A model generated the notes under the pieces. The model did no database searches and was not told the origin of the DNA. It saw only the letters and a list, made by a program, of their open reading frames with translations. Shown here piece after piece: positions 41,483 to 44,841 of a stretch of DNA of 64,000 nt (positions are counted from its first letter, which is position 1; the number at the start of each line of letters is the position of its first letter). The position numbers were made by a program, and so were the translations under genes. Location: NCBI GenBank assembly GCA_037143175.1, contig JBAWZF010000004.1, positions 1 to 64,000 of the forward strand, read 5' to 3'. Source of the stretch: a bacterium. GTDB lineage: Bacteria; Verrucomicrobiota; Kiritimatiellia; CAIKKV01; CAITUY01.

Positions 41483-42586
41483 TTATTTGCGTATTTGAGC
41501 CGTTCCGTTACCTGATGCGGTTACTCCAAGCGTGGAGGTCATCCGGTATTCAACCCCATGAACCACTCCCGATGAACGCACTCTAAGCACGGAGGAGGCG
41601 GTTCCTCCCAGCGCTTTCAGGCGCTGTTGCTCTTCAGCCGTGAGTCTGTTGAGCTCGGGAACCCGGCTAAACAAGTTGTTCACGTCTGTATAGAAGTAAT
41701 CTTCACTTATTTGCGCGCCCCCTGTCAAACCTTGTCTGCCGCCCTTTTCCCGTTCGGCAATAATGGCATCCGCCAGTGTGCTATCAATGCCGGGGAGGGT
41801 CATGAGTACACGTTTTGAGGCGGCATTGATATTGACAGTTTCCCCGGCTTCCGGGCTGACAGTCAGCAGGTCAGCGATGCCGGTCATTGGGGCACTGTTG
41901 GTATCCCCGTCTTCGGCATAGCCTCCGTAAAGGATGGCATGGCTCCATCCTTTGATAAGGAGCAGTTCTTCTATTGTGTCCAGATTTACCATTTTGTCAG
42001 GTGTCATGACTTTTGAGGTTTTACTGGAAACAGTTGCCTTATGCCCCCTTGCCTTATAGGGGGGATCAAGTCGGGCATAATAGTCATCAGTTTCTGCCCC
42101 ATCCGTGCTGCGATCATCATCAGGATCTCTCCAGTCGTAAAGGCAGTCGATCAGTTCCTTTCTTAGATTAATATCATCCGGCACACCGCCAACCGTAAAG
42201 ATGGCATCCCAATCCTCATCATCTTTTATAGCGTTAAGGTTTCTGAGTGCGGGTTCAGGAAGGATATCGAGAATAAAGGTTCCCTCCCCAAGCTTTACCG
42301 TCAATCCCATAATGGCGTAGCCTTGGCGTAACCGTTTGGCTGAGTCATACCAATATTTCCCCTTCATTTCGTCGCTATCCCCTTTGCCTTTGACCTCCTG
42401 ACTATGTATGAAAAGCGCCTGGGCGTATTCCAGACCTGCCTTGGAGAGATATTCGGCTTTCAGTCGTTTGCGCAGGTGGGACACGATTTTCGCTTCGACA
42501 TGCATGTCAAAGGCAAATCCCCCGATCAGAACTGAGAGGAGGGCGACGACCCACAGGACGATGATCAATGCGGAACCGCGCTTCAT
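41483..42586 (-). CDS. gspK: Type II secretion minor pseudopilin GspK
   Basis: A 367-residue minor pseudopilin that caps the pseudopilus tip. Short leader and hydrophobic helix (MKRG-SALIIVLWVVALLSVLIGGFAF), with cleavage after Gly4. The large alpha domain has GLEYAQALFIHSQ, DILPEPALRNLNAI, the helix-hairpin-helix-like VNINAASKRVLMTLPGIDSTLADAII, and an Asp-rich CLYDWRDPDDDRSTDGAETDDYY calcium site. It overlaps gspJ by four bases. Confidence 0.93.
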   Translation of the reverse strand: MKRGSALIIVLWVVALLSVLIGGFAFDMHVEAKIVSHLRKRLKAEYLSKAGLEYAQALFIHSQEVKGKGDSDEMKGKYWYDSAKRLRQGYAIMGLTVKLGEGTFILDILPEPALRNLNAIKDDEDWDAIFTVGGVPDDINLRKELIDCLYDWRDPDDDRSTDGAETDDYYARLDPPYKARGHKATVSSKTSKVMTPDKMVNLDTIEELLLIKGWSHAILYGGYAEDGDTNSAPMTGIADLLTVSPEAGETVNINAASKRVLMTLPGIDSTLADAIIAEREKGGRQGLTGGAQISEDYFYTDVNNLFSRVPELNRLTAEEQQRLKALGGTASSVLRVRSSGVVHGVEYRMTSTLGVTASGNGTAQIRK

Positions 42587-43401
42587 CGTATTCCCTCCTT
42601 GGCGATGGGGATTTCCACCAGGCGGCGCATTTCAAGCGGCGGTTTTCCCTCTTCCAGTGGTTGCAGATACAGCGTGATCTCGACAAAGCGGGGGAGATGG
42701 TTGGTGAGGTCTCCCCCCAAATTGCATTTGCCCTCCCATTCATCCAGCCACTCGATCTTTTCGGATTCGAAGTCATTGGTCGCCACGCGGATGCCGAGGC
42801 CGGTAATTCGGTCTGAAAGCACTTCCGGTTCAAGGGTGTCGGGCTCAAAGTCGTCCGGCTGAAGATACTCGTCACCCCAAGCCGTATAGGCCGCACCACG
42901 ATTGCCATTTTTATCCTGCCCGATAAAAAACCGGACATGGTGGAACGTTTTGGCCATATAGGAATTAACGCCTACCAGATCCGACCCTTCCTTGACCCAC
43001 GAAATGCTGTCGGATGACGCATTCCCGCTGCCACTCTTTTTGAGGATCAATCCATCATCCCCCCCGCGGTAACGGGCTGACCGCAAGGCGCTCACCAGTT
43101 GCTCAATGACAAAGTCGCCGGCATGGAGATCTTTGCTGAGTGCTGTGCCCCGCTGCCAGGCTTTACTGACGGAGGAGAGGAGCATGAAACACGCCCCACA
43201 TACCAGAGTCATGATGGAAAGGGCTACTAGAAGCTCAATCAGGGTGAAACCATTTTGGAGTGCGGCGGCTTGACGCCGCTTTTCTTCGGTGCGGCTTGAC
43301 GCACCGTTTTGGGTGTTGCAGCCCGTCAAGCCTGGCGGCTGGAAAGCGGCGTCAAGCCGCCGCACTCCAAATGAGAAAACTATGGATGATCCCAAATTCA
43401 T
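42583..43401 (-). CDS. gspJ: Type II secretion minor pseudopilin GspJ with palindrome in its leader
   Basis: Minor pseudopilin: NGFTLIELLVALSIMTLVCGACFML is a standard prepilin peptidase site and helix, and the body is beta-rich. From ATG 43401, three bases after the gspI stop, the leader before the cleavage site would be 51 residues rather than 6-20. The extra 40 residues are encoded by a 118-bp composite palindrome (43254-43371) that reads through in frame and supplies EEKRRQAAALQNG before the cleavage site. A TTG or GTG inside the element could serve as a later start. The rest is of normal GspJ length. Confidence 0.88.
   Translation of the reverse strand: MNLGSSIVFSFGVRRLDAAFQPPGLTGCNTQNGASSRTEEKRRQAAALQNGFTLIELLVALSIMTLVCGACFMLLSSVSKAWQRGTALSKDLHAGDFVIEQLVSALRSARYRGGDDGLILKKSGSGNASSDSISWVKEGSDLVGVNSYMAKTFHHVRFFIGQDKNGNRGAAYTAWGDEYLQPDDFEPDTLEPEVLSDRITGLGIRVATNDFESEKIEWLDEWEGKCNLGGDLTNHLPRFVEITLYLQPLEEGKPPLEMRRLVEIPIAKEGIR
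43254..43371. repeat. REP-like composite palindromic element inside gspJ
   Basis: Two 29-bp arms, 43254-43282 and 43343-43371, are perfect inverted repeats. Four small hairpins share a GGCTTGAC/GTCAAGCC core: GCGGCG-GCTTGA-CGCCGC (43262-43279), CGGTGCG-GCTTGA-CGCACCG (43287-43306), a weaker one (43319-43341), and GCGGCG-TCAAGC-CGCCGC (43346-43363). The first two face one way and the last two the other, as in a BIME-type or MITE element. No target duplication is obvious. Confidence 0.9.
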
Positions 43402-43404
43402 GTT

Positions 43405-43815
43405 TCACAACCCCAGATCATTTGTATAGTACAAGTACGAGGTCACTTCTTCGAAAGCCTGTCTCCCTTTAGCGGACCAGGTGACGCGGCTCTTCACGAC
43501 AACCAGATCTTCTTTTTCGGCATCCCTTTCAGAAGTGCGTTGATAGGTGAAGTTGAGGGGAGGGTATTCGATGGGGCCCACATTCAGGTTCAGTGCCTTA
43601 AGTTCCTTTTCGTTTTTTTTCTGAACAACCAGAAGCGGATAATCAAGTTCTCCGATTTCCAGAATACGACGCGCCTCGTAGTAATTCTTTGCCGTGCTGA
43701 CGACAGCAAGACAACGCGAGGTGGCGGTCATAAGCACCCCTGCCGAAATGGCCAGGATGGCGAGAGCCATCAGAATCTCGACAAGTGTCATGCCTGCTTT
43801 TGGGGATCTGGGCAC
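43405..43815 (-). CDS. gspI: Type II secretion minor pseudopilin GspI
   Basis: A 136-residue pseudopilin with leader MPRSPKAG, cleavage before MTLVEILMALAILAISAGVL. The globular part is small and beta-rich (EEVTSYLYYTNDL at the end), as for GspI. It lies between gspH (three bases) and gspJ (three bases). Confidence 0.9.
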   Translation of the reverse strand: MPRSPKAGMTLVEILMALAILAISAGVLMTATSRCLAVVSTAKNYYEARRILEIGELDYPLLVVQKKNEKELKALNLNVGPIEYPPLNFTYQRTSERDAEKEDLVVVKSRVTWSAKGRQAFEEVTSYLYYTNDLGL

Positions 43816-43818
43816 GCC

Positions 43819-44427
43819 TCAATTTCCTTTCTGGGTGACTTTGATTGCCCCGACGGCATCCACGGTAACAAGCATACTGCTGCCGAATTCATCAACGACG
43901 CGTGCTTCGAAGGGAGTGCAACGGCCGTTGGATTGATAGACAATCGCTGCCGGTTCGCCTTTCATGCCGCTTTTCTTGCCGTCTACCGTAAAGGATTCAA
44001 TCTGTACCGCATCTAGTTTGCGGGTAATACTGCTAAAAGGTACCGCTGTTTGAGGTTCCTGGGGGGCGTCAGGATCGGGGACAGGGGCCGACACCGGTAC
44101 ATTGTCTTCGGATTTGAAGATCTGATCTCCGGGAAGGGCGGGCGTAGCTGTCCGGAGGGGGGCGACACTCACCAGGTTGTTTTCCTTGTCGAGGGTCAGC
44201 TTCATTTCCTGATTTCGTAGAATGGCGCTGGTGCGTGCATAATTGGCGGCCATGACGACAGTCCGGGTTCCTACCCGCAGCCGGTTGCCCCGGATGGACT
44301 TCATGAGCGAGGGCATAGCCACAATTGTCATAATCCCCATAATGGCAAGCACCATCAGGATTTCCACAAGGGTAAAACCGGGGGAAGGTGAACGGCGCCT
44401 CCAGGGAATGGAAAGTGCAAGGTTCAA
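43819..44427 (-). CDS. gspH: Type II secretion minor pseudopilin GspH
   Basis: A 202-residue pseudopilin: leader RRRSPSPG, then FTLVEILMVLAIMGIMTIVAM. GspH features include ARTSAILRNQEMKLTLD, followed by a beta-rich domain with a Pro/Asp-rich loop (PVPDPDAPQEPQ). It sits directly after gspG. Confidence 0.88.
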   Translation of the reverse strand: MNLALSIPWRRRSPSPGFTLVEILMVLAIMGIMTIVAMPSLMKSIRGNRLRVGTRTVVMAANYARTSAILRNQEMKLTLDKENNLVSVAPLRTATPALPGDQIFKSEDNVPVSAPVPDPDAPQEPQTAVPFSSITRKLDAVQIESFTVDGKKSGMKGEPAAIVYQSNGRCTPFEARVVDEFGSSMLVTVDAVGAIKVTQKGN

Positions 44428-44841
44428 TTAATTTGTAACGAACTCGCCATCAGGTTTACGGGCCTTGAGTTCATACGACTCGCCTTTGACAGCATAGACG
44501 AAATCATCACCCCAGGGGGTTTTGGGCATGCGGCCATCTTTCAAATAGGGGCCGTTCCAGTTGTACTCGCTGCCTTTAGTCAGAAGGCTTTGCAGGCTTG
44601 CGGGTAGCACCCCATTATCCACTTCATAGGTATCGATGGCCGTTCCTATGGCCTGTATGCTCGTGCGCGCCGCCGCGATTTGACTGCCGAGCATACGTCC
44701 TCTGATGCTGACAGTGGCCACGCCAGCGAGGATGCCTAAAATGGCGACTACAAGCAGAATTTCCACCAACGTGAAGCCGGAACGCCGATTATGATCTTTT
44801 GACTTTAACGATAGGACGGATGTAATTTTCTTTGTATTCAT
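44428..44841 (-). CDS. gspG: Type II secretion major pseudopilin GspG
   Basis: Major pseudopilin of 137 residues. Leader MNTKKITSVLSLKSKDHNRR-SG, then FTLVEILLVVAILGILAGVATV. GspG hallmarks: IDTYEVDNGVLPASLQSLL, then WNGPYLKDGRMPKTPWGDDFVY, the conserved loop that precedes the calcium site. GGAGAAAA precedes the ATG. Confidence 0.95.
   Translation of the reverse strand: MNTKKITSVLSLKSKDHNRRSGFTLVEILLVVAILGILAGVATVSIRGRMLGSQIAAARTSIQAIGTAIDTYEVDNGVLPASLQSLLTKGSEYNWNGPYLKDGRMPKTPWGDDFVYAVKGESYELKARKPDGEFVTN

Follow-up and report, generated by a model that had tools for sequence, protein, structure and literature searches.

Among the short repeats described in bacterial genomes, the GTAG and CGTC REPs are palindromes with an unpaired tag and variable complementary stems, which form head-to-head dimers and are mostly intergenic (PMC3733652). 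The reported degeneracies of the GTAG tag comprise GTAG, GYAG, GYRG, GTRG, GTMG, and GTGG (PMC3733652). Some REPs lie in frame within genes, N termini included (Di Nocera et al. 2013, PMC3733652), the verrucomicrobium Opitutus terrae providing the richest intragenic case for GTAG REPs (PMC3733652). The same authors cautioned that REPs assigned to the N-terminal part of genes may for the most part be extragenic, with the start codon misplaced (PMC3733652). TIR-associated tyrosine transposases (TIRYT) have terminal inverted repeats (TIRs) with the consensus GGGGWSAS (PMC3733652). According to the account given in PMC10969869, the palindromic elements of Rickettsia are ~150 bp long, lie in frame in protein genes, and can be translated as fusions (Ogata et al. 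2000, 2002). Type IV prepilin leaders are hydrophilic, end in G or A, vary in length, and are cleaved off in the cytoplasm (PMC10191384). In Streptococcus sanguinis, PilE leaders of 18 residues (PMC5389465) have been termed very long (PMC10191384). Here we describe a REP-like palindrome in the leader of a gspJ gene, found in a window of 64,000 nucleotides, which is the whole stretch of DNA covered by an earlier note.

A composite palindrome in the gspJ reading frame

The palindrome had been described in the earlier note as 118 bp long, with four GGCTTGAC cores and terminal arms that match perfectly over 29 bp. These coordinates proved exact (Table 1), hairpin 3 having a weak stem. The arms are still 85% complementary when lengthened to 48 nt. 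Two of the cores read GGCTTGAC (43267-43274 and 43293-43300) and two read GTCAAGCC (43325-43332 and 43351-43358). The 23-mer core of the arm has two matches within the window compared to 0 expected from 100 shuffles, and an Rfam scan of the window returned tRNAs only. The stem of hairpin 2 differs from those of sister copies (GGCGCG/CGCGCC, GGCCTG/CAGGCC) by compensatory change. The ends of the element are inverted and the flanks are A/T-rich, which could mask a short target-site duplication (MITE criterion).

Table 1. Element, gspJ leader, and neighboring operon genes (positions in the window).
Feature	Position	Strand	Details
REP-like composite palindromic element	43254..43371	.	118 nt; net in-frame insertion probably 117 nt
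Left arm = hairpin 1	43254..43282	+	TTTGGAGT tag, stem GCGGCG/CGCCGC, TTT tail
Right arm = hairpin 4	43343..43371	-	perfect reverse complement of left arm
Inner hairpin 2	43287..43306	+	C-GGTGCG-GCTTGA-CGCACC-G
Inner hairpin 3	43321..43336	-	weak 3-bp stem GCC/GGC around GTCAAGCC
gspJ (T2SS-type minor pseudopilin) ORF	42583..43401	-	272 aa; operon order G-H-I-J-K
51-residue prepilin leader	43249..43401	-	MNLGSSIVFS[element]NG, then FTLIE
gspJ start ATG	43399..43401	-	3 nt past gspI stop
gspI	43405..43815	-	directly upstream; intact upstream flank of the insertion
gspH	43819..44427	-	
gspG	44428..44841	-	position and GFTLVE motif
gspK-type gene downstream of gspJ	41483..42586	-	operon position; putative family

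The gspJ frame passes through the element, as had been proposed: in the minus-strand ORF 43401-42583, the GF prepilin site falls at residues 51-52 and leaves a leader of 51 residues. We named the gene for its place in the G-H-I-J-K operon, since the match of its product to the NCBIfam GspJ model (TIGR01711) is below the cut-off of that model; TIGR02532 matches above cut-off, and the G/A-F-T-L-x-E cleavage motif is present together with the T2SS operon position. Relatives share the order G-H-I-J.

An assembly artefact at the repeat might be suspected in a genome of 3.30 Mb in 107 contigs, the more so as the repeat is often found at contig ends in other carriers. We regard this as extremely improbable because the repeat is flanked by neighboring genes of a single operon, the internal spacer is unlike that of all other copies, and the frame is intact. 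The adjacency of gspI and gspJ in all compared operons likewise argues against a misjoin.

Copies of the family and the question of a mover

The element belongs to a dispersed REP-like family. A count of the arm across the genome, which the earlier note had proposed, revealed 35 matches to the 15-mer core GCGGCTTGACGCCGC with ≤1 mismatch, corresponding to ~20 elements, compared to 0 for the reversed control pattern. Nine pairs are intact (both cores exact, spaced by 74-81 nt), and about a dozen copies are partial, some with one altered arm. The majority lie outside clear genes, copies at 2 of 18 loci being within one. We also observed that several of these copies (flanks of L001, L007, L009, L012, and L021) are located within a larger repeat with a TTAGATGCGTCTGCCC-like end.

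In a search of 58 genomes, the core was found in 18, our own counted in. The exact 26-mer arm TTTGGAGTGCGGCGGCTTGACGCCGC is present at 115 loci of GTDB at least, in several phyla, in records that are nearly all metagenome bins, so that some contigs may be misplaced. By record title, the carriers belong to Acidobacteriota, Planctomycetota, Verrucomicrobiota with Kiritimatiellota and Lentisphaerota, Coatesbacteria, Hydrogenedentes, Fimbriimonadaceae, and Betaproteobacteria. Since only exact matches were scanned, this demonstrates spread and not invariance. Two further observations were that a Coatesbacteria bin (L080, L094, L119, and others) has many copies, often at contig ends and with a longer internal spacer, and that three viral contigs (L189-L191) carry the exact 23-nt arm.

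Variation in the partner hairpins, at whose stem there was no selection for exactness, is paired. Over 28 variants, 99.0% of cells are paired compared to 86.5% after shuffling, with 23 double changes compared to 6.8, a count that leans towards structure because the variants were gathered by a pattern already requiring part of the structure and were then hand-listed. The tag is GGAG, and its first three bases do not vary over the 28 variants. The family thus presents itself as a dispersed palindromic unit with a covarying stem-loop, mostly in extragenic head-to-head pairs, as is typical of REP/BIME-like repeats. Searching the literature for four spellings of the core, with most subscription journals outside the scope, we encountered none of them in a paper on such repeats.

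It is very unlikely that the element is a classical GTAG REP mobilized by a REP-associated tyrosine transposase (RAYT). Its head-to-head dimers and unpaired 5' tag would suit such a REP, and contig C82 of our genome has a Y1 transposase gene (L307, G000:C82 4928-6091) with an element on either side, a position that made this gene a promising candidate. It failed on closer comparison: the gene is flanked by its own inverted repeats, which contain GGGGTCAG and fit the TIRYT consensus, and the two elements are part of a 3083-nt tandem duplication. Presence of RAYT homologues does not track the element either, since they occur in 12 of 18 element-bearing and in 26 of 40 element-free genomes and are absent from four same-genus genomes carrying the element. 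The GGAG tag likewise speaks against a classical GTAG or CGTC REP. The C82 transposase is therefore unlikely to be the mover, and the link to a REP-associated transposase drawn in the earlier note was not upheld. The element was not near any of 29 further transposase loci in relatives, and no cognate transposase was found.

A few copies elsewhere are crossed by reading frames. In an acidobacterial ThiC gene (L087 2642-4570), the element lies in frame and would add a peptide near residues 170-200 of a protein that matches a solved ThiC over residues 4-637. A RimO gene (L110 5659-7164) has it in frame in the linker between two domains, and the ORF of an SAM methyltransferase (L085 5614-7098) crosses it in frame as well. 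These three genes suggest that read-through is tolerated. In our own genome, a PMT-type membrane protein gene (L249 2530-5328) contains an in-frame half element between two hydrophobic segments, and the element encodes the peptide KRRQAAALQ both there and in gspJ. No homologue of this protein was found in eight relatives with a query that had stray residues in front. As a separate observation, heptamer repeats adjoin the element in the RimO gene.

Repeats in the pseudopilin leaders of relatives

The palindrome had been thought to give gspJ a leader of 51 residues instead of about 10. This norm does not hold among close relatives. All four same-genus relatives in which gspJ was found (G004, G002, G003, and G001) have long leaders of 41, 39, 30, and 34 residues, respectively, as measured from the farthest in-frame upstream ATG, and these are filled with other repeats. 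The distance from the gspI stop to the G/A codon is 128, 121, 98, and 101 nt, respectively, compared to 153 nt in our genome. In G004 the filling is made of CAGAATC and CTCACGT heptamers; G002 has AATCCAG and TTCATCC, G003 has GTGAGAC-type units, and G001 has AAAGCAG with TTTCAGC in inverse order. The CAGAATC heptamer of the G002 and G004 leaders is dispersed in all nine genomes compared, in which CAGAATCCAGAATCCAGAA is present throughout (≤1 mismatch). The CAGCTTT heptamer of the G001 leader was found, among the nine, in G001 only, at several other places there, and so was CAGCTTTCAGCTTTCAGCTTT, at several sites besides the gspJ leader. The fillings are dispersed repeats, so that each leader contains sequences common in its genome.

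In outgroups, gspJ leaders counted from the nearest ATG or GTG are mostly 4-21 residues long, with G016 as an exception (39 residues). The leader of this same-order relative (L308 / L049) was seen to contain a different palindromic stretch, GGGAGGGCGCGCATGTTGCGCGCC and GGACGGCGACACGCCGTCCCTCCC. Long leaders lacking the palindrome had been named beforehand as an observation that would speak against the insertion. Such leaders do exist in relatives, but they are made of other dispersed repeats and generalize the finding rather than cancel it.

Repeats are also found in gspH (G002, G003) and gspI (G001, G002). Taken together, they occur in 9 of the 15 gspH/I/J genes of the genus compared to none of the remaining 113 prepilin genes (Fisher p = 3e-10), an exploratory comparison of 128 genes from nine genomes, in which the groups were chosen after the data had been seen and the five genomes of the genus share ancestry. 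Two of the nine genes, gspJ of our genome (G000) and of G003, were called by eye, the tandem-repeat filter being blind to them. A general hotspot in all prepilin leaders was not supported in view of the 113 repeat-free genes. In 146 genomes of the class, a search for the arm beside prepilin motifs returned the copy in the window only. Separately, we observed that the operon of a same-family genome (L281, G007) has long inverted heptamer arrays of the CCAACGT / ACGTTGG types in the leader regions of gspH and gspI. A literature search on repeats in prepilin leaders and on heptamer repeats yielded nothing on point.

Contingency loci usually have their tandem repeats between start codon and mature domain. 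With repeats in 9 of 15 genes, the heptamers and palindromes might make gspH, gspI, and gspJ phase-variable by slippage or excision. We consider this very improbable, as the arrays are short and imperfect, every frame was seen open, and the element in our own gspJ has no tandem array.

In our genome, the gspI stop codon TGA (43407-43405) is followed by AAC and then by the gspJ ATG. ATG-AAT starts are located 4-5 nt past the gspI stop in G004 and G002 and match this position. Two further starts lie in frame within our leader, GTG 43365 and TTG 43329, so that part or all of the palindrome could form an untranslated 5' hairpin that separates gspI from gspJ, with translation from one of these codons or from a non-canonical start. 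Di Nocera et al. (PMC3733652) voiced this caution in general terms. A planctomycete prepilin gene (L156), examined as a second case of a REP-coded leader and set aside, also fits such an arrangement: a good Shine-Dalgarno (SD) sequence and a GTG follow the arm, which is thus extragenic. Furthermore, SD pairing at ATG 43401 (-5.4) is the best of the three and yet not outstanding against the ATG background (-2.3, s.d. 2.7), as is true of every candidate. A non-coding element is nevertheless unlikely. Pairing is weak at the GTG (-2.4) and the TTG (-2.5), and starting there would break the presumed coupling with gspI. In addition, the stretch from the repeats to the cleavage site lacks a canonical start in G004, G002, and G001; their only one lies upstream, and translation through the repeats is therefore nearly forced. 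ATG 43401 is the preferred start in view of its pairing, its nearness to the gspI stop, and the agreement with relatives, which argues against the earlier idea that the element sets a new start.

The RNA of the element is predicted to fold with -93.9 kcal/mol (z = -10.2), and a hairpin of this strength in the message counts against a translated leader. Such a stable fold, followed by a short U run after the hairpins, might indicate that the hairpin was kept as a regulator of gspJ through attenuation, RNase protection, or slowed translation. We think this improbable because the run after the first hairpin amounts to only three U residues, the other repeats in relatives show no such fold (z -0.1 to +3.2 compared to their own loci), and the structure is not conserved at the gspJ locus.

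Based on the sequence comparisons, the locus is likely to represent a near-neutral insertion into the gspJ leader that is translated and subsequently removed by cleavage. A single copy of the dispersed, non-autonomous element would have inserted between the start codon of gspJ and its prepilin-peptidase site. The gspJ start is probably coupled to the gspI terminus; an insertion separating stop and ATG would disrupt this coupling, and an in-frame insertion just past the ATG would be tolerated. Ribosomes would read through the element and produce a 51-residue leader ending in EEKRRQAAALQNG, which the peptidase would discard by cutting after G51, so that the mature pseudopilin is probably unchanged. 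Without these 117 nt the sequence would read MNLGSSIVFSNGFTLIE, which is an ordinary leader of ~11 residues; we infer this pre-insertion form, as the nearest relative holds another repeat at the site. Since close relatives have repeats of other kinds at this position, the leader seems to be a place where repeats land with little harm, and its apparent capture of other repeats in sister species would mark it as a permissive landing site. The earlier suggestion of an insertion tolerated and recruited as coding sequence is thereby supported as regards the resemblance to REPs, the insertion, and its tolerance as coding sequence; the transposase link is not.

Implications and comparison with known systems

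REPs within genes including their N termini, the caution about misplaced starts, and in-frame palindromes in Rickettsia were already known. Added here are a palindrome family with another tag and a wide host range, common to several phyla and with no known mover, and a leader that appears to have captured repeats repeatedly. Five sister species with five different fillings of one leader may provide a natural experiment on the entry of selfish repeats into coding DNA. For annotation, they are a warning that prepilin starts in these bacteria may be far upstream. A broader interpretation, which we offer tentatively as possible rather than probable, is that a family whose arms are identical in several phyla spreads without RAYTs and writes itself into proteins, and that the coupled pseudopilin leaders of this genus are recurrent landing sites, where repeat families succeed each other while the start and the mature protein stay fixed.

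Compared to GTAG and CGTC REPs, the element is similar in its short palindrome, unpaired tag, paired stem variation, head-to-head dimers, and occasional in-frame copies. It differs from GTAG REPs in its GGAG tag, which is outside the reported degeneracies, in its GGCTTGAC loop, in the occurrence of the same arm in several phyla, and in that no cognate RAYT flanked by the element was found, the C82 gene having other TIRs. CGTC REPs are distinguished by their tag, the ends of the element being TTTGGAGT and TTT. The C82 transposase itself resembles TIRYTs in its Y1 domain and flanking GGGGTCAG inverted repeats, which differ from the element. As far as the Rickettsia elements are described in PMC10969869, the in-frame copies in conserved genes (ThiC, RimO, methyltransferase, PMT-type) are alike, a likeness of description and not of sequence; unlike them, the copies in our genome are mostly intergenic, and the carriers belong to several phyla. 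Finally, the 51 residues of the gspJ leader far exceed the 18 of S. sanguinis PilE, and its sequence is derived from a repeat.
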